Source: Pirellulales bacterium (lineage in GTDB: Bacteria; Planctomycetota; Planctomycetia; Pirellulales; Thermoguttaceae). From it: a stretch of 42,074 nucleotides of DNA. The position numbers and the translations under genes were made by a program. How positions within the stretch are numbered: the first letter of the stretch is position 1; each line of letters opens with the position of its first letter. This document shows positions 2,510 through 22,209 of this stretch, in pieces. The notes beneath the pieces were generated by a model, which searched no databases, was not told the origin of the DNA, and saw nothing but the letters and a program-made list of their open reading frames with translations. The stretch lies in assembly GCA_016931075.1 (NCBI GenBank), contig JAFGFF010000268.1:1-42074 (forward strand), written 5' to 3'.

Positions 2510-3619
2510 TCATCTCCGTCGCCAGAGAAGAAACGCTAGTGCCGAAGAGAGCAGCAATGCCAATACGGAGGGCTCGGGCACAGTCGCGCCTTCGCCCGAG
2601 CTTGTCCAATTAGCTGCCAGGATCGACGCGTCCAGATCGTCTACCCATTTGTCTCCATTGAAATCGCCGTCCGTTTCGTCATAGCCGATATTGTATTTCA
2701 ACCAGTTGGCGGCCAATTTCCGGGCGTCCTCGGAGTCCACCACGTTGTCGCCGTTCGTGTCGCCGGGAAAGAGCTGGACCACGTCATTCCAGTGAGACGC
2801 TCCCTGGGCGAACACGTTCGCGCGGATTTGCGCCGAGCTGAGCGCCTCGTCCCAGAAAGCCACATCATCCAGCGGCAGATTGGCATACTGTCGCGTTGCC
2901 AGGGAGCCGAGATCGGCGCAGCCAATTTGCAATCGGTCCATCTCGGGATACATGCTCGGGGTGGGGACATCAATAACCGTGTCGCCCGTTCCGAAGACCT
3001 TGAACATCCCCATGACCGTGTTGACCTTATTCCCGTCCTGGTAGAGTTTCAGCATATTGATGCCCTCGATGTTTTCAACCGTCAAGGCCATATGGTGCCA
3101 CTGGTCCGCCTCCCAGGTCAACTGGGCCGAAGTGCCCAGATAGCCCGCGCCGGAATCGGCGCTTGCATAGAACGAAGCCACGCGGCCAGGCGTGTCCCAG
3201 ACATACCCGGTATTGAATTGGAATCTCGGGTAATAGGGATTACTGATGTCCCAAGAAAATACCGGGCGTCCTTTCAGTTCGTCGACGATCTTGTTATCCA
3301 CGTTTTTGACCCACATCGACAGTGTGTAGTCACCCGCCGGTCTCAGGTTGGCCACATACGCTGCCAAATCAGTCCAGACATCCCCCTGCATATCTAGCGC
3401 GGTGCCGAATTGTCCCGGGATGGAACGATTGAATGTGTTGAGTGGCATGTCTCCAATGATGGTGGCTTCATACAATTGCCCGTTGTAGCCAGACACCACA
3501 TCAGTCACGATGTTGTCGAAGGCACTGTCGTCCATTGTCCAATTCGCCACTAAGCCAGCATCGGCCGTACAGATTGCTAGCACCGAAACTATAAGAAACC
3601 AAAATGTACTGAATCGCAT
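2510..3619 (-). CDS. Secreted LamG-like protein with dockerin-type repeat and PEP-CTERM signal
   Basis: 369 residues: signal peptide (about 1-22), a concanavalin/LamG-like domain opening with VANWTMDD, a dockerin-type pair of calcium-binding repeats ([15 protein letters not shown] and [14 protein letters not shown]), then VPEPS, a hydrophobic helix and RRR, which is the PEP-CTERM/exosortase sorting signal. ATG 3619 is chosen over the upstream in-frame start because AAGGGAG lies just before it. The LamG domain suggests carbohydrate binding at the cell surface. It is paralogous to the next gene upstream (3921-4841), which has the same LamG domain but no dockerin repeats. No catalytic domain is visible. 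Confidence 0.9.
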
Positions 3620-3679
3620 CGCATTTCTCCCTTGCTGATGACGCGTCACCAGATGGCACGTTATCCTGTGCCGTGATTG

Positions 3680-3886
3680 TTAACGAGAATACAGTCCTTC
3701 CACGGGCGGCAGGCCCAATCGCTCATGGATTTCCCTTTGCCCGAAGCGATCGAGCCGCCGCCGTGGGGCACCCAACGGATCATCCGTATGGAATAAAACA
3801 CGTTGCCGACTTTCAATAAAAGCCAGCGAGCCGGGATGCTCCCCCCAAAGGTTGACGAGAACCCGGCCGTGGATGCGCACGCTCAT
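3680..3886 (-). pseudogene. Possible remnant of a metallo-beta-lactamase-fold protein
   Basis: This part of the 301-base spacer reads, on the minus strand, GEHPGSLAFIESRQRVLF followed by HTDD. That resembles the PGHTPGSxA...RVLFTGD segment of metallo-beta-lactamase-fold hydrolases, with the first Thr replaced. It lacks a start, the HxHxDH motif and the rest of the fold. If real it is a decayed fragment; chance similarity is possible. Confidence 0.25.
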
Positions 3887-3920
3887 CCACGGCGCCAATG
3901 ACACCGATAGGAATACGCCG

Positions 3921-4841
3921 TTAGCGCCGCCGACGGAATCGCAGCAATGCCAGCGCCCCAATAAACAATACGAGCGAACTCGGCTCGGGCACGGCCCAAC
4001 CTTGAACGCCGTGGTTTATCACGTTGGCGATTTGCTCTTCGGTCAACGCGCCTTCCCACAGGCCGACGTCGTCGATGGGCAGGTTGCCATACGAGGTAGA
4101 GCCCAGCGACCCGAGGTCGATGGCGCCGATGTGAACCTGGTCCAACACGGGATATGTGCCCGGAGTGGGGACGGGGATCGTAGCGTCGCCTGTCCCAAAG
4201 AGCTTGAACATGCCCATGACTTCCGCCACCTTGTCTCCGTCCTGGTAGATCTTCAGCACGTTCGTGCCTTCGACCTCTTCAACGGTTAAGGCGACGTGAT
4301 GCCACTGGTCCGCTTCCCATGTCGTCAATTGGGGTGAAGTGCCTAAATAGCCGGCGCCGGAACTGGCGCTTGCATGGAAGGAACTGATCCGGCCGAAGGT
4401 GTCCCAGACGTATCCACAAACGACTTGGAATCTCGGGTAGTAGGGATTGCTCGTGTCCCAAGAGAACACGGGGTGGCCTGCCTGTTGCGTTGCCAGGACG
4501 TTGTCGACATTCTTGACCCACAGGGACAGCGTGTAGTCCCCGGCCGGTTTCAGATTGGCGATATGGGCCGTCAGGTCGGCCCAGACCTGATTCTGGAGAT
4601 CCAAGGCCGTGCCGAACACCCCGGGGATGGAGACATCCTCGGTGTTCATGTTGACCTGATTAGCATGGTCGTTCTGATATAACGAACCGTCGTAAGAATG
4701 GCCCGACGAATCGAGCACCGTGTTGTCCGCCGCGTTGTCGTCCATCGCCCAGTGTCCCACGAGCGTTTCCCCCTGGGCCGCACTTGACAGGGCGAGCATC
4801 GTCACGGCAAGCATAAAAAGCCATGATTGTGTGAGTCGCAT
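3921..4841 (-). CDS. Secreted LamG-like protein with PEP-CTERM signal
   Basis: 306 residues: signal peptide (about 1-24), one LamG/concanavalin-like domain starting LVGHWAMDD, and a C-terminal VPEPSS, hydrophobic helix and RFRRRR, i.e. a PEP-CTERM signal for exosortase processing and surface attachment. ATG 4841 is preferred to the adjacent TTG because AAGGGAG sits upstream at normal spacing, exactly as in the paralogue at 2510-3619. The two proteins align along nearly the whole LamG domain (shared segments include PAGDYTLS and NPYYPRFQ), so they are tandem duplicates. This copy joins the LamG domain directly to the sorting signal with no dockerin repeats. Predicted role: surface carbohydrate binding or matrix protein. 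Confidence 0.9.
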   Translation of the reverse strand: MRLTQSWLFMLAVTMLALSSAAQGETLVGHWAMDDNAADNTVLDSSGHSYDGSLYQNDHANQVNMNTEDVSIPGVFGTALDLQNQVWADLTAHIANLKPAGDYTLSLWVKNVDNVLATQQAGHPVFSWDTSNPYYPRFQVVCGYVWDTFGRISSFHASASSGAGYLGTSPQLTTWEADQWHHVALTVEEVEGTNVLKIYQDGDKVAEVMGMFKLFGTGDATIPVPTPGTYPVLDQVHIGAIDLGSLGSTSYGNLPIDDVGLWEGALTEEQIANVINHGVQGWAVPEPSSLVLFIGALALLRFRRRR

Positions 4842-5263
4842 CAATTTTCTCCCTTGAAAAACGGAACCTCAAGCAAATGAAACCAGTTGCTGTCAATGCG
4901 TCTTCTCTAGCAATTCCGTTTTCTCTGCTCCAAGTTGCGAGTTGTATTATTTGTTCTAGTAGACCTCCTCTTTCTGGTGTTAAAGTCAAGAATAATTGAA
5001 TGTAAGGAAAGCTCACTCTGTTCCAAACTAGAAACGGAAGTCGTTCGGCATGGCTGCCGAGCATTCCCCATTCTTTACCTTGCGAGCCTCACCTACCTCT
5101 CCGGCCTGCCTATACTTTCGCTGTTCTCATCAATTCATGAACGGTTGCTCCTTTTTTGTCGTCTTTCTTCTGACTGACACGGGCACGCGCAAGCACGGCT
5201 TCTTCTCTCCGGCAAGTACTCTGTCGCGTGCGAGCACGTGCCCGCTTAGATGATTAATCTCTG
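4842..5263. other. AT-richer spacer with a stem-loop
   Basis: The 422-base spacer holds no gene I can support. Bases 4860-5170 are clearly more AT-rich than the genes around them and should contain the promoter of the LamG gene to the left. The left part of the terminator-like palindrome of the next gene lies at 5180-5244. Confidence 0.5.
5180..5244 (-). terminator. Imperfect inverted repeat downstream of the discoidin/dockerin gene
   Basis: The arms CGGGCACG..GCACG and CGTGC..CGTGCCCG flank a loop of about 29 bases, directly after the stop of the minus-strand gene ending at 5264. The position suits a transcription terminator or mRNA 3' end. It lacks the GTAG or GGGTGCCA heads of the other palindromes. 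Confidence 0.45.
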
Positions 5264-6736
5264 CTAACGTCGGCGACGCAAAAGCAGTCCGCACGACAAA
5301 CCTAGCAACAGCACCAGTGTCGTCGGTTCTGGCACCCCGACTGGCGGTAGGGTATTGCCCCAATTGGCCGCCAGGATCGAGGCGTCTAGATCGTCGACGA
5401 TCCCGTCGTCGTTGAAATCGCCCTGTTCCCAGCCGACCCCGTCGCTGCGCAACCAGTTCTCTGCCAGGATACGAGCGTCAAACTCGTCGACCGTACCGCT
5501 GTTGTTGGCGTCGCCCGGGAAACGGACTATTTCGTAAAACCGGACTTCGTTAAGCCCCATTTGTCCCGCTGCGGCCCCATAGTTGGTCAATTGCGTCATG
5601 CGAACGTGAGTCGCCGTGACACCTCCGAAATCAACCGCCGTCTGATAGCCATACGTCCGGTACACCGTGTCATTCGGTTCTTCGGGTGCTTGGGCGAAGG
5701 TGTGCGTGCCCGGGTCCAGGCCGTTCGTGTCGGATAGAGCGGTCCAGAGGATGCCGTTGTCCGAATACTCCAGAATCACTTCCTTCGTGCCGGATGTACT
5801 GGTGCCAGAGGTGGCGGTGGCAAAGGTATAATTCCATACCAGCATTTCATCCAGCACATGCGAGCCCTGCAGGTCGAAGGTAATGGCCATGGGGGATCCA
5901 TCACCCGGCAGACAACAATACTGGCCGGCGCCGGAGATGGCCATCGCCGTGGGATCACCCACGCCCGCGCCGCCTTGATCGGTCATTCCCACGTTGTTGA
6001 CCATGTTGGTCGGTTCCGCGAAGTCACTTCCGTTCGTGGCGCCTGCCAGAAGCCGGCTCGGATCACTAAAGCTCACGCCCACATTGCCGATGAAGCCGTT
6101 GTAACCGGGGACATTGGCGCGGACGCGCATCTCGGTCATTCTCAGGTCGTCGTCAACATCAGGGACATCCACGGTATCCCGAATCCGAATATATCGAACT
6201 CCGGTCCATCCGCTGAGGTCGACGGTCCAAAACCGCGCGCCGTTGCCACTGTTCTCCGCCTGCAAAGTGGCGGTGGGGATTTCCATCGAGTAGAGCTCGC
6301 AATCCGTGGTGACGCCGGCTTCGAGATAGCAGCCCGTGAAATAGGGCGTCCAATTGCAGATGGGAAGGGTGCTTTTGGCGGGAAACAACTGAAGTGAGTT
6401 TAGGTCCAAGGTAACGCCGTCTTCCCCGGTCAGATCGATCCCCAGTGCGGCGTCAATGTTGGTGTTAACGTACATGAAGTTCTGGGGGGACTGATACCAA
6501 ATGTCGTCGTTGATTATGGGTTCCCCGGTCCACAAGTCACTACCTTCGGGATTGTAGATTTCATGGGGCTTGTAGTAGCAGGCGCCGGTACTACTACCCG
6601 CTCTAAAAATCTCCTTCATGTAGGCGACGTTCGTGTCGACGGAATCGACCGCCCGCGCCTCCCCGGTCCAGGCCACACATGCCGTAACCAAAACGGCCGC
6701 GACCAGTGTGATGGCTTTCCATTTCACACACATCAT
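5264..6736 (-). CDS. Secreted discoidin-like protein with dockerin-type repeats and PEP-CTERM signal
   Basis: 490 residues: signal peptide (about 1-30), an N-terminal beta-rich region, a discoidin (F5/8 type C)-like domain recognisable from GSHVLDEMLVWNY, EVILEYSDNGILW and GLNEVRFYE, then two dockerin-type repeats (PGDANNSGTVDEFDA, GDFNDDGIVDDLDA), then VPEPTT, a hydrophobic helix and RRRR. ATG 6736 is chosen because GGAGG lies eight bases upstream; an in-frame TTG further up would place that site inside the coding region. The discoidin fold usually binds glycans. Paralogue of 6965-8218. The product is predicted to be exported and processed by an exosortase that is not encoded here. Confidence 0.9.
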   Translation of the reverse strand: MMCVKWKAITLVAAVLVTACVAWTGEARAVDSVDTNVAYMKEIFRAGSSTGACYYKPHEIYNPEGSDLWTGEPIINDDIWYQSPQNFMYVNTNIDAALGIDLTGEDGVTLDLNSLQLFPAKSTLPICNWTPYFTGCYLEAGVTTDCELYSMEIPTATLQAENSGNGARFWTVDLSGWTGVRYIRIRDTVDVPDVDDDLRMTEMRVRANVPGYNGFIGNVGVSFSDPSRLLAGATNGSDFAEPTNMVNNVGMTDQGGAGVGDPTAMAISGAGQYCCLPGDGSPMAITFDLQGSHVLDEMLVWNYTFATATSGTSTSGTKEVILEYSDNGILWTALSDTNGLDPGTHTFAQAPEEPNDTVYRTYGYQTAVDFGGVTATHVRMTQLTNYGAAAGQMGLNEVRFYEIVRFPGDANNSGTVDEFDARILAENWLRSDGVGWEQGDFNDDGIVDDLDASILAANWGNTLPPVGVPEPTTLVLLLGLSCGLLLRRRR

Positions 6737-6905
6737 TGTTGGGTCCTCCAAATAGAGAAACGCGACTTAGCACGAATCGCGAGTCGAGAGCATCAAACGA
6801 ATAACAAACACACCCAGCCTCCCCCTCCTGGAAACTTCTCCCTGTCGCGCCAAGAGGTGTTCCCCCGACGGTCCAAATCATCCTCGGCGGGTTTTCAACG
6901 CTCCC

Positions 6906-6945
6906 GGAGGCGCCACTGCCGGCTTGTTCAGCAGTGGCGTCCTCC
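6906..6945. repeat. Single REP-like hairpin of the CACTGC...GCAGTG type
   Basis: CCACTGC and GCAGTGG flank a CGGCTTGTTCA loop. It has the same core as the arms of the palindrome at 33391-33471, but only one unit is present. It lies just past the stop of the minus-strand gene ending at 6965, so it may serve as terminator. Confidence 0.6.
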
Positions 6946-6964
6946 TTTCTTCCTACGACCTGTT

Positions 6965-8218
6965 TCAGCGTCGACGCCGGCCGACGAGGCACAACAGGCC
7001 CAGTCCGATCAGCCCAACGGAAGTGGACGGCTCAGGGACTTGATAAAACCGGACCTCGTTAAGACCAAAGGTTCCCGCCTCGCCCCCATAGTTGCTTAGT
7101 TGCGTCATGCGAACATTCGTCGCAGTGATGCCCTCGAAATCGACCGCCGTCTGGTAGTCATACATACGGTATTCGGTGTTGTTATATTCACCGAGCGGCG
7201 TGCTGGCGAACGTGTGGGTGCCCGGGTCCGTGCCGTTCGTGTCGTCCATCGTGGTCCAAGTAGTGCCGCCATCGTTTGAATACTCCAGCGTCACTTCCTT
7301 CGTGCTACGATTGTTCCAGGACACGGCGTTGGTGCCATTGCTATAGTTCCAAACGAGCATTTCATCCAACTCATGCGAGCCATGCAGGTCGAAGGTAACG
7401 ACGGCAGGAGCCCCAGAGCCATCATTAACGCTGCAATATTGGCCCGCGCTGCTGATGGACTTCGCCGTGGGAGAACCCACGCCCGCGCCGCCTTGATCGG
7501 TCATTCCCACGTTGTTGACCATGTTTTGCGGCTCCGCGAACTCAGCGCCATTTTCGTCGCCTGATAAGGCCCGGGCGTCATCATATCCCACGGTCACGTT
7601 GCCGATAAAATTGGCGTAACCGGGGACGTCGGCGCGGACGCGCATCTCAATCATTCTCAGGTCGTCGTCGACACCGGCGACGTCAACGGTGTCCCGAACC
7701 CGAATGTATCGCACATCGTTCCAGCCGGTGAGGTCGACAGTCCAAAACCGCTTGCCGTTGCCACCGTTCACCGCCTGCAAAGTGGCGGCGGGAATTTCCA
7801 TCGAGTAGTCGTCGCAATCGACCGTGTCGCCGGCCTCGATATAGCAACCTGTCAAATAGGGGTGCCAAGAGCAAACGGGAAGGACGACCTTGCCAGGAAA
7901 CAACTGAAGTGAGTTGAGGTCCAGTGTGACTCCTTCTTCCCCAGTCAGATCGATCCGGAAATAGGCATCCACGTTGCGATTGATGTACAGATAGTTCTCG
8001 GGAACTTGGTACCAGATGTCGTCCACCAGGACGGGTTCCCAGTTGCCCGCACCGTATATGTTCGTGGGCTGAAAATAGGCAGCCCCGCTTGGTGCATCCT
8101 GCACGGGTTTCATGTAGGCGACGTTCGTGTCGACCATTTCCGCCCGGACGATTCCGGTCCAGGAGGCGCATACAACAAGCGCAGCTCCCAGGATCAATCC
8201 CAGATGTTTCCACGTCAT
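6965..8218 (-). CDS. Secreted discoidin-like protein with PEP-CTERM signal
   Basis: 417 residues: signal peptide ending near residue 27 (VRAEM), the same N-terminal and discoidin-like domains as its neighbour 5264-6736 (for example NMVNNVGMTDQGGAGVG is identical in both), then VPEPSTS, a hydrophobic helix and GRRRR. The dockerin-type repeats of the neighbour are absent: GLNEVRFYQ runs straight into VPEP. ATG 8218 has GGAGG upstream, with the same leader layout as the paralogue. Probable surface-anchored glycan-binding protein; no enzymatic motif seen. The pair arose by tandem duplication and subsequent gain or loss of the dockerin module. Confidence 0.9.
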   Translation of the reverse strand: MTWKHLGLILGAALVVCASWTGIVRAEMVDTNVAYMKPVQDAPSGAAYFQPTNIYGAGNWEPVLVDDIWYQVPENYLYINRNVDAYFRIDLTGEEGVTLDLNSLQLFPGKVVLPVCSWHPYLTGCYIEAGDTVDCDDYSMEIPAATLQAVNGGNGKRFWTVDLTGWNDVRYIRVRDTVDVAGVDDDLRMIEMRVRADVPGYANFIGNVTVGYDDARALSGDENGAEFAEPQNMVNNVGMTDQGGAGVGSPTAKSISSAGQYCSVNDGSGAPAVVTFDLHGSHELDEMLVWNYSNGTNAVSWNNRSTKEVTLEYSNDGGTTWTTMDDTNGTDPGTHTFASTPLGEYNNTEYRMYDYQTAVDFEGITATNVRMTQLSNYGGEAGTFGLNEVRFYQVPEPSTSVGLIGLGLLCLVGRRRR

Positions 8219-8473
8219 AGTGGCATCCTCCAAAAAGTGGGGTGAAAGGGCCCTTTATTGATTCCTGCATAGTCAATGTTCGTACTTCACCGCCGATGGG
8301 CCGCTTCGTGGCCTGATCGGCTCTCCCGGTTAGCGGGAAACGTTCATTGGCAATGCGGACCTCAATAATTACAGGGCTTCGAACAAAAACCGGTTGCAAC
8401 ACATAACTCCCCACTTGCCGCTTGCCACTTCTCCGTGCCGACTACCCCTTGAGAATGATCCATCATTCTCCAT

Positions 8474-19396: not shown

Positions 19397-20545
19397 GTGT
19401 ATCAACCGATGTCTCCCAGTGTTGCCCAGCTAGTCTCCACAATGTCTGGCGATCAGATTTCGGTGACGCAAAGCAACAGTCACATCTGTATTGGTATTCG
19501 CCCCGGCATCTCAAAAACTCTCGGCTATTGCGGGGTTCTATTCATCCCGACAGGTGTCGTTCTTGGTGGCGCTGCTCTCTCGCTTGCCGTGACTTTGTCT
19601 GCCTCTGATCAGCCTAGCTGGTGGGCAATCGCAGCGTGGGCCGCTGTCGGACTCCTAGGTTTACTGCCTGCCATCGCGATGACTGCGATCCTTATACCGC
19701 CGCTCGTCATCAGGAGCAACATCGAGATCAGCGACCAAAGTGTTTACATCAAGGAAGGTGGCAGCGCGATGGAGTTTCCCTGGGAGGATATCAAGTCGGT
19801 CCGAGTACTATACAAGAGGAAAACCGAGCGCCAAATTCACGTTAAGAGCGGTGTGTCGTATCTTCGGGGTCGCGGTGGTGGCATTGCAATCGAGACCCCC
19901 CATGGCACAGTCAAACTAATGACGCACTGGCATCACGAAGTGAGTCAGTGGCTGGCAAGATTGCTGAGTGAAGTCTCAGGCGTCACGCTTTTTGACGACG
20001 AGAAAATCACGCGACCAGTTCTATTGAAGCCCATTGTCCGTGGCTTGTCAGCTACGATGTCTCGCAAAGAATCAAGAGGTGCGATGCTCCTCGGGCTATT
20101 TCTCGCCATATTGGCTCTATTCGGTGTCGGACGCATCGCTCTAGATTACCGAGACCTCGTACAATGGAAACTGGCCGTGGGCATTATCGAGTCGATAGAC
20201 ATGGAAAAGTCAGAGACTCAGCCGCACCTTGTTGTATCGTACCGCTATGAGGTGCAAGGAATTACTTTCGAGAACGATAGTTCTCGAATCGACGATTTGC
20301 AGGATGGTCGTCAGGCAGACATCGCCGTTGGCGACCGGATCGAGGTGCGGTACGACCCCGACGATCCGCGCGAATCTACGGCGGCGTGGCACCTTAGATT
20401 AGGAGCCTGCACAGACGGAATCATAATCTTCCTTGCTTTGGCCTTCGCGTGCGGACTCCTCGGAGCGACCCCGATAATCTACGCAGCGATCCGCAAGGAG
20501 AATGCCTTGGCCACACACTACGGTTGTCCAAATGAAAAAGAATGA
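19397..20545 (+). CDS. DUF3592-like membrane protein of unknown function
   Basis: 382 residues with two hydrophobic helices near residues 45-95, a PH-like cytoplasmic stretch (MEFPWEDIKSVRVLYKRK), a further helix near 225-245, then a segment with the DUF3592 pattern (LVVSYRYEVQGITFEND, GDRIEVRYDPDDPRES), and a last helix near 340-365. Function is unknown; such proteins are usually inner-membrane proteins. The start is the GTG with AGAGGG upstream; ATG 12 bases further is possible. Base composition is visibly lower in GC than the genes around it, and it is flanked by two related PEP-CTERM tails, so it may be a later insertion. Its 3' end overlaps the antisense protease gene by 147 bases. Confidence 0.72.
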   Translation: MYQPMSPSVAQLVSTMSGDQISVTQSNSHICIGIRPGISKTLGYCGVLFIPTGVVLGGAALSLAVTLSASDQPSWWAIAAWAAVGLLGLLPAIAMTAILIPPLVIRSNIEISDQSVYIKEGGSAMEFPWEDIKSVRVLYKRKTERQIHVKSGVSYLRGRGGGIAIETPHGTVKLMTHWHHEVSQWLARLLSEVSGVTLFDDEKITRPVLLKPIVRGLSATMSRKESRGAMLLGLFLAILALFGVGRIALDYRDLVQWKLAVGIIESIDMEKSETQPHLVVSYRYEVQGITFENDSSRIDDLQDGRQADIAVGDRIEVRYDPDDPRESTAAWHLRLGACTDGIIIFLALAFACGLLGATPIIYAAIRKENALATHYGCPNEKE

Positions 20546-22033
20546 AAAAGGAATGAAATGCCCTGTACAAATTGAATGCTGCCCTAGGGGAATTCCGCCG
20601 AGCTGCATAGGCTGATTCTGGGCATTCTGGTATGCGATTTCATGTTCGAGTTCGGCGGGCGACAGCCCTGCAAGCCACGTGTACGACACCCGGCTTGTTC
20701 TGTAACGGAGGAGCCACAGGACGGGTAGACTCCAGGCCAGCAAGAGGAAGGTGCCGGGCTCGGGCGTGGGTGTCGAGGGCGGGTTGAGGGACCAGTTGGC
20801 GGCCAGGATCGAGGCGTCGAGGTCGTCGACGCGGCCGTCGTGGTTGAAGTCGCCTTCGGTCCAGAATCCGTCGGTCGATTGCAGCCAGTGGGCGGCCAGG
20901 ATCGAGGCGTCGGCCGAATCGACCCGGCCGTTGCCGTCGGCGTCGCCCGGCGCGGGGGTGGGCCGGACGTCGATCGTCACCGTGGCGGCCTGTTCCGACC
21001 AGGCTTGGCCGTCGAACAGTGCGTAGGTGAAAGAGTCGGCGCCGATGAAGCCCGGGTTGGGCATGTAGATGAACTCCCCGCTGGGATCGAAGGAGAGCGT
21101 GCCGTTGGCCGGCAACGTCAGGCTGGTCGAGGTGAGTAGAACGTCGCCGTCCAGATCGAGGTCGTTGGCTATCACGCCGGGCAACTCGACACGGAGCGTG
21201 ACGTCTTCAAACGTGGCGTATGCGTCGTTCTTGGCCACTGGTGGGCGGTTCGGCGGCACGACGCCGGTGATCCAATCGTAGAGCGACGCCACCCGGGCGA
21301 AGGTTCCCCCGTCGCCGTAGCTGGCGTTGGCCGAGCCGTCGGTGTACCAGAGGGCCGTTTGGACGCCGGCCAAGTAGGTCTGGCCCTCAATGTCGACAAA
21401 CAGTCCCCCGCCGCTGTCGCCGTGGGCCATGCAATACTCCAGGTCCAGCGGCTCGGGCGAGCCCATCCGATTGCCGGCGCCGTCGTCGTCGGGCCGATCG
21501 AAGTCGACCAACAAAAGGTTCTCGGACCAGCCCCAGACCGAGCCGAGCATGTCGATCGTATTTTGACCGGCTCGCTTCGTGCCGCTGTAGGTTGTCTCGC
21601 CCGTCAGGCCCGTGCCCGAGCGTCCAAAACCCACGGTGACCGCTTCACGGCCCAGTTCACTGCCGAACTCGGGCAAGTAGAGCTTCGCCGGCGCCACGTC
21701 CGTCACTGGCCGGTCGAGCTGGAAGAGCCCGACGTCTTCGCCCGGGTATTTTACGATGGTCGATGCAACAGCGTTATAGGTCTCGTCGCCGAGCCGGAAG
21801 GAAGCCTGCGCGGTGGCCATGTGGCCGGCCGTGAGAACCCACGTGGGAGAAATCAAAACACCGCTTCCCAGGAGGCTGCCGGTGCAAATTTGCCCAGCGG
21901 CCGCGTAAGCTGGATCGTCGGCCAACGCCAGGTAGAGCGCCTCGTCGCGATCATGGCGGATCGTGCCCGCCGTGACTGCGCCGGCAGCCAACACGACCAG
22001 CATCAAACTTATCGCAACGAGCGATCGGGGCAT
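20399..22033 (-). CDS. Secreted trypsin-like serine protease with cadherin-like, dockerin and PEP-CTERM modules
   Basis: 544 residues: signal peptide (about 1-23), trypsin-like domain with His71 (TAGH), Asp100 (GEDVGL) and Ser207 (GDSGGG), a cadherin-like/VCBS-type domain (about 262-357, PPVAKNDAYATFED), two dockerin-type repeats (about 362-414), a Pro-rich linker and a PEP-CTERM signal PEPGTF...WLLRYR (about 424-445). Such signals normally end the protein, but here the frame continues for 99 residues with no recognisable domain, running antisense through the 3' end of the neighbouring gene. A lost stop codon is the simplest explanation. ATG 22033 starts at the signal peptide. Expected at the cell surface or exported. 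Confidence 0.85.
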   Translation of the reverse strand: MPRSLVAISLMLVVLAAGAVTAGTIRHDRDEALYLALADDPAYAAAGQICTGSLLGSGVLISPTWVLTAGHMATAQASFRLGDETYNAVASTIVKYPGEDVGLFQLDRPVTDVAPAKLYLPEFGSELGREAVTVGFGRSGTGLTGETTYSGTKRAGQNTIDMLGSVWGWSENLLLVDFDRPDDDGAGNRMGSPEPLDLEYCMAHGDSGGGLFVDIEGQTYLAGVQTALWYTDGSANASYGDGGTFARVASLYDWITGVVPPNRPPVAKNDAYATFEDVTLRVELPGVIANDLDLDGDVLLTSTSLTLPANGTLSFDPSGEFIYMPNPGFIGADSFTYALFDGQAWSEQAATVTIDVRPTPAPGDADGNGRVDSADASILAAHWLQSTDGFWTEGDFNHDGRVDDLDASILAANWSLNPPSTPTPEPGTFLLLAWSLPVLWLLRYRTSRVSYTWLAGLSPAELEHEIAYQNAQNQPMQLGGIPLGQHSICTGHFIPFSFFFIWTTVVCGQGILLADRCVDYRGRSEESAREGQSKEDYDSVCAGS

Positions 22034-22209
22034 GACTGCGTCCAAGATGCAGACTCAGTGCGTTCAACCCAACAGGCGGCAGACAGCCACACATAAACGA
22101 GAACGCCCAGTATAGAAAATCACCGGGGTCCAATGCAAGAAATGGCGTCATTGCCGCCCCGGAATTGTCCGAGGGAGCCCTTTCTTCGGGTGGGGCAGTA
22201 TGCCTCGGC

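Follow-up and report, generated by a model that had tools for sequence, protein, structure and literature searches.

The window analyzed here is a stretch of 42,074 nucleotides from an uncultured Pirellulales bacterium, contig C418 of a 6.06-Mb assembly (G000; 491 contigs, 94% complete), and its minus strand encodes two tandem pairs of paralogous PEP-CTERM proteins in which one member carries a dockerin module and its mate does not. Pair 1 comprises LamG proteins: the downstream member (2510 to 3649, minus strand; PF13385, PF00404, PF07589, and TIGR02595) and the upstream member (3921 to 4844, minus strand) are 59% identical across 283 amino acids, and beyond that only their VPEP-like tails match. 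Pair 2 comprises discoidin-like proteins (downstream member, 5264 to 6751; upstream member, 6965 to 8233 with an F5_F8_type_C_2 match of 28.4 bits; both minus strand), which are 63% identical across 411 amino acids, up to GLNEVRFY, with the match restarting at VPEP. With a Pfam Dockerin_1 (PF00404) cutoff of 22.9 bits, the downstream members score 26.0 (2510) and 29.9 (5264), and no Dockerin_1 match was found in the plain mates at 3921 and 6965. The modules, delimited by coordinates and sequence, lie at 2603 to 2773 and 5357 to 5524 (minus strand). All four proteins exceed the NCBIfam TIGR02595 cutoff for a PEP-CTERM signal, composed of a PEP motif, a hydrophobic stretch, and a basic C-terminal end; the signals occupy 2513 to 2581 and 5267 to 5335 in the dockerin-bearing proteins and 3924 to 3992 and 6968 to 7039 (30.6 bits) in their mates, all on the minus strand. 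The with/without state of both pairs and the exact discoidin junction, as claimed in an earlier note on this DNA, are thus confirmed.

A third module is present at 20789 to 20956 (minus strand) of a trypsin-like/cadherin-like protein (20399 to 22045, minus strand; PF00089 and PF17963), which gave the highest Dockerin_1 score of the three (38.4 bits). One 13-amino-acid text is common to all three modules, consistent with the earlier report of the same module in this protease. Downstream of its dockerin comes a PEP-like stretch (PTPEPGTFLLLAW...LLRYR) that is internal, so that a C-terminal sorting signal is not borne out for this protein. About 100 amino acids continue in frame beyond the stretch (20399 to 20788, minus strand), odd for a C-terminal signal, and may reflect a lost stop codon, a fusion, or an assembly error.

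The module qualifies as a true type I dockerin on the strength of its sequence, its calcium loops, and its predicted fold. The calcium ligands of a dockerin loop, which we take to be acidic residues at loop positions 1, 3, 5, 9, and 12, correspond in the G000 modules to D5 (100%), N/D7 (70%), D9 (84%), D/N13 (90%), and D16 (100%) in repeat 1 and to D36 (99%), N38 (96%), D40 (100%), D/N44 (98%), and D47 (100%) in repeat 2; conservation is thus 96 to 100%, the exceptions being repeat 1 at loop positions 3, 5, and 9 and repeat 2 at position 9. The profile matches dockerins in the PDB (E value of 1.5e-8). An AlphaFold2 model of the discoidin module (pLDDT of 97.5) returned the dockerin chain 2y3n_B as its first Foldseek match (probability of 1.00, TM scores of 0.82/0.77), and the 24 best matches were all dockerin or cohesin-dockerin entries, with a best E value of 2.2e-3 and none at 0.001 or better.

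The arrangement seen in the window recurs across the genome. With matches counted at E values up to 0.01 and the best 150 of 228 candidates scored, G000 has at least 106 PF00404 matches in 101 genes; it also has at least 150 PEP-CTERM matches (best 150 of 286 candidates scored) and two exosortase matches (PF09721; E values of 6e-57 and 2e-54). Among the PEP-CTERM matches listed, one begins no more than 120 nucleotides downstream of 57 of the 106 dockerin matches, always in frame and in 34 of these 57 cases at exactly 33 nucleotides, which is more than chance adjacency. A PEP-CTERM profile built from G000 itself found the signal in 78 of the 101 dockerin genes, in agreement with the earlier claim that the module adjoins a sorting signal. 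The same layout was found in relatives, for 4/10 modules in G005, 26/30 in G013, 26/29 in G033, and 24/29 in G055; in other families of the order, where a few plus-strand loci per genome were read, dockerin and PEP-CTERM occur together in 5/5 loci of G077 and 3/3 of G078 and in 0/4 of G063 and 0/3 of G068.

The precision of the junction was examined in adjacent same-strand genes whose passengers match at an E value of 1e-6, both in G000 and in G037, which represents another genus of the same family. In transcription order, the 28 pairs of G000 comprise 19 without-then-with, 3 with-then-without, 6 with the module in both mates, and none with it in neither; the corresponding numbers for the 19 pairs of G037 are 8, 4, 4, and 3. 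Pairs lacking any dockerin are under-counted in G000 because its 80 stretches were picked around dockerins; three dockerin-free neighborhoods that were added held one adjacent pair, which was unrelated. Discordant pairs, with the module in one mate only, thus amount to 22/28 in G000 and 12/19 in G037, the latter being no higher than the level that simple arithmetic predicts from the dockerin frequency of that genome. In 32 of these 34 pairs (two plain genes are each paired twice, with two neighbors), the plain copy aligns to within 6 amino acids of its own PEP motif. The insert before the PEP motif of the other copy measures 66 to 79 amino acids in 30/34 pairs, 88 in a further pair, and 333 in the other three. 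The earlier note's precise cassette at the passenger/PEP-CTERM junction therefore extends to two genera, and with/without tandem pairs of this precision are unusual. As to a possible exchange of module plus PEP tail as one unit, the tails of discordant mates share an identity of 0.53, versus 0.49 for random tails (p 0.01), with just two same-state pairs at 55% identity or more available for comparison. LamG is the most common passenger (22 of 53 tandem genes), and discoidin, sialidase-like, esterase, and phosphodiesterase passengers were also found. In the three copies with a 333-amino-acid excess (L104, L164, and L165), the extra stretch is about 270 amino acids long, and the plain mate has just the first part of the passenger.

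An insertion point this precise across unrelated passengers would suit a mobile module, that is, a dockerin repeatedly inserted into or lost from genes beside PEP-CTERM, as the earlier note had envisaged. Small trees of tandem mates (the G033 row being left out) add to this, as mates cluster by locus and not by state (C268 and its mate, 99/98; C46 and its mate, 99/98; C120, 100/99; C25, 99/99; C479, 95/93), so that close copies have come to differ in state on many occasions. Comparison of orthologues speaks against mobility. Of 24 reciprocal-best passengers between G000 and G037, 18 agree in module state and 6 differ; after filtering for at least 35% identity and 50% coverage, 16 of 19 agree, and disagreement occurs only at 47% identity or less. 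One array, plain-dockerin-dockerin, is kept gene by gene in the two genomes (72, 80, and 76%). Where passengers are at least 55% identical, the orthologous module ranks 1, 2, 1, 19, 22, 8, and 1 of 98; modules of well-conserved passengers are thus in most cases among each other's closest and appear to stay with their genes. At the DNA level, no direct repeats were found on either side of the discoidin module, and the sole direct repeat of the LamG gene (10 nucleotides) encloses the whole 3′ end, comprising module, PEP-CTERM, and stop codon. Mobility of the module is accordingly not borne out, and we consider it very improbable. C268 and C46, and likewise C120 and C25, resemble one and the same locus found in both genera. 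Either such a pair arose twice in the same order, or gene conversion homogenizes the passengers while the C-termini stay apart; neither is proven, and both would point to selection for two forms.

Recent copying of modules within the genome was also considered and rejected as the main cause, since codon identity is alike for modules on unrelated (0.56) and related (0.57) passengers. The value for unrelated passengers exceeds the pool expectation of 0.43; several codon positions of the module are at equilibrium, and neighboring-codon context accounts for part of the excess. The codons behind the shared 13-amino-acid text are mixed at most positions, including D45, D47, A48, and A52, and the text is therefore not a trace of recent copying.

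No cohesin was detected in G000, either with PF00963 or with a family-specific profile, both of which gave 0 matches in this 94% complete assembly. The family-specific profile was made from 11 cohesins of relatives and recovered 3/3 positive genomes, of which two had contributed to it and the third, G068, had not. Dockerin proteins of G000 shorter than 330 amino acids were judged by eye, and none is cohesin-like, the profile test being the genome-wide one. A canonical cohesin could be missing from the 491 contigs or too diverged for the profiles, in which case G000 would have an ordinary noncellulosomal cohesin-dockerin system of the planctosome type. PF00963 indeed matches in 18 of the 99 genomes of the relatives search (G000 included), and proteins joining cohesin and dockerin are present in G055 and G013. 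Yet of the 20 genomes with at least 10 dockerins (E value of 1e-5), 13 have no cohesin match, among them the one-contig G083 and G073, given as 100% complete; the family-specific profile is likewise negative in all 13, and cohesin matches never exceed two in a dockerin-rich genome. We therefore regard a missed cohesin as unlikely. One of the proteins of G013 (L193:1129-1872, minus strand; 247 amino acids) combines a signal peptide, one cohesin, a dockerin of the local type, and a PEP-CTERM signal, and its gene adjoins a second cohesin-dockerin gene.

The most unusual point above all is what appears to be a genome-specific recognition code without any detectable receptor. With columns numbered by the profile of the G000 modules, calcium and core positions are alike in all genomes compared, and the residues characteristic of each genome fall in repeat 2 on loop positions 10, 11, 13, and 14 and, with less uniformity, in repeat 1 on positions 10, 14, and 17. 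Columns 45 to 49 read DLDAS in 90 of 99 G000 modules, including all three of the window. Columns 45/46/48/49 are D 95, L 92, A 97, and S 97% in G000 (n = 99); D 94, L 97, L 97, and A 97% in G037 (n = 33; that is, DLDLA); P 62%, R/K/L, A 100, and S 76% in G033 (n = 29); A 100, A 86, A 100, and A 76% in G055 (n = 29); and D 100%, x, A 100, and A 100% in G013 (n = 30). The shared 13-amino-acid text of the window is the code of G000. Where orthologous genes carry a dockerin in both genomes, 11 of 12 read DLDAS in G000 and DLDLA in G037, and the rest of each module is gene specific; this parallel change is the decisive control against lineage-specific expansion. A scan for V[DN]DLD[AL][SA]I[LM] in one genome per species (84,980 species, possibly leaving out G000) gave 63 confirmed loci, all in planctomycetes and mostly in Pirellulales. 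A dockerin with a PEP-CTERM behind it is also encoded on the chromosome of a named isolate, Lacipirellula limnantheis I41. In G033, a D-L class (about one-quarter) and a P-R/K/L class (most) of modules were seen (L244 to L263 and L194 to L223), L or G follows the first Trp in similar proportions, and the two classes perhaps correspond to two receptors.

Contact residues of cellulosomal dockerins are given as 11, 12, 18, 19 and 45, 46, 52, 53 (PMC4728124). The Ser-Thr pairs of CelS align at columns 14-15 and 45-46, which places Lys-Arg at columns 21-22 and 52-53. The eight published cohesin contacts include five (45, 46, 14, 21, and 22) of the ten columns with the strongest genome-specific signal (P 0.004).

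We favor, as on balance probable, the reading that the module is a calcium-dependent docking tag for a genome-specific, noncohesin receptor, present in about 100 secreted proteins and displayed by exosortase sorting. The dockerin is stably built into these proteins and in most of them sits precisely at the border of functional part and PEP-CTERM signal; exosortase processing of the signal would put them on the cell surface with the dockerin as the last folded module. All dockerins of one genome would dock calcium dependently to a common receptor, not recognizable as a cohesin, and a change of its binding surface between genera would have pulled along the contact residues of all dockerins. For many of the lectins, tandem genes provide one version with the docking tag and one version lacking it. 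The earlier suggestion of a cohesin-free use is thereby qualified: it agrees with the negative result of both profiles, but the genome specificity of the contact residues speaks for a partner of some kind. The more specific picture, in which a surface docking network of about 100 clients is delivered by exosortase and has its code rewritten in all clients when the noncohesin receptor changes, is possible, and we put it forward tentatively.

Several observations weigh against a docking tag with a single receptor. No receptor was identified in this analysis. The cut at ten columns behind the P value was chosen afterwards, column 25, the second strongest genome-specific signal, is not a published contact, and the published contact columns 52 and 53 hardly vary. 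The modules of G013, G033, G055, and G005 come from the top of the score list and those of G037 from gene-dense stretches, and the two module classes in G033 suggest that a single receptor for each genome could be an oversimplification. The plain-copy-upstream polarity of tandem pairs is significant in G000 only (19:3, p 0.0009; G037, 8:4, p 0.39). Finally, synonymous uniformity is above the prediction from codon usage and context at S49, L46, I50, and L51, with TCG encoding 85 of 95 conserved serines at column 49 of G000, versus 30% in the pool and 46% when isoleucine follows; this leaves room for short-tract copying between modules.

The same uniformity, together with the lack of a detected cohesin and a near-fixed distance to the PEP signal that suits a structural role, could be accommodated by a calcium-stabilized spacer without any partner, which would hold the passenger off the membrane and resist proteolysis, its uniformity resulting from duplication and gene conversion. 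Such a spacer would not account for a signal concentrated on published contact columns, for mixed codons at D45, D47, and A48, or for a code that changes while orthologous modules keep their own sequence elsewhere. The code is also independent of the PEP signal, because DL.AS is found in 71/76 modules with a recognized PEP-CTERM and in 19/23 without. We thus hold the spacer to be rather improbable, if slightly less so than a missed cohesin. That independence bears equally on the idea that the exosortase machinery itself reads the module as a co-signal, to which the short, near-constant spacing from the PEP motif (determined in two genomes, observed also in other genera of the family) would lend itself; as 91 of 150 PEP-CTERM proteins among the matches listed are dockerin free, we rate this the least probable of the explanations weighed.

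Among known systems, clostridial type I dockerins (PF00404; e.g., the Cel48S dockerin, PDB 2mte/1daq) agree with the docking tag in having two calcium loops with following helices and in lying close to the C-terminus of secreted carbohydrate-active proteins, with sequence and fold matches to the G000 modules. Within-organism conservation at contact positions is also described for Clostridium thermocellum (Ser-Thr pair; PMC4728124). They differ from G000, which has no detectable cohesin or scaffoldin, whose module precedes an exosortase signal, and in which only repeat 2 is fixed at contact positions. The “planctosome” of freshwater Nemodlikiaceae (PMC6461901) likewise concerns noncellulosic dockerin proteins of planctomycetes; cohesins are reported there as the anchor, whereas none was found in G000, where the passengers are mostly LamG lectins. 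A cohesin-bearing scaffold, by which a cellulosome or planctosome is recognized, was thus not found in G000 with either profile. The PEP motif, hydrophobic stretch, basic end, and exosortase agree with the reported PEP-CTERM/exosortase sorting system (PMC1569441), from which G000 differs in that a docking module directly precedes the signal in most of its dockerin genes. In the open-license literature, no paper was found with both “dockerin” and “PEP-CTERM”; “dockerin” and “exosortase” occurred together only in a paper on cohesin/dockerin and exosortase in methanotrophic archaea (PMC5244752), which belong to a different domain of life. The dockerin fold, PEP-CTERM signals, and planctomycete dockerins as such are ordinary.

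The abundance of planctomycete dockerins is not claimed as new, because the work of Peer et al. on noncellulosomal dockerins may already list them. A dockerin is normally regarded as half of a pair, and cohesin-dockerin pairs are reportedly species specific in clostridia (Pages et al., 1997). Here, no cohesin could be found in genomes that have between ten and a hundred dockerins, and the contact residues of these dockerins, uniform within and different between genomes, behave as if one shared partner selected them, which hints at a noncohesin receptor. The partner of cohesin-less dockerins thereby becomes a directly testable question, with the genome-specific code as a signature for seeking it, and the function of the module can be probed in the 34 naturally occurring pairs in which a surface protein exists with and without it.

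Some dockerin proteins of G000 depart from the common layout. In about ten large proteins (L085, L096, L105, L108, L120, L123, L127, L131, L134, and L136), the dockerin is followed by a tail of about 100 amino acids that is not a PEP-CTERM signal; several of these tails share VGPRR...LLAPAR-like text and may represent a second surface-attachment domain. L121 (C398:38347-38817), of 156 amino acids, consists of a signal peptide, a DLDAS dockerin, and a hydrophobic tail, with practically no passenger.

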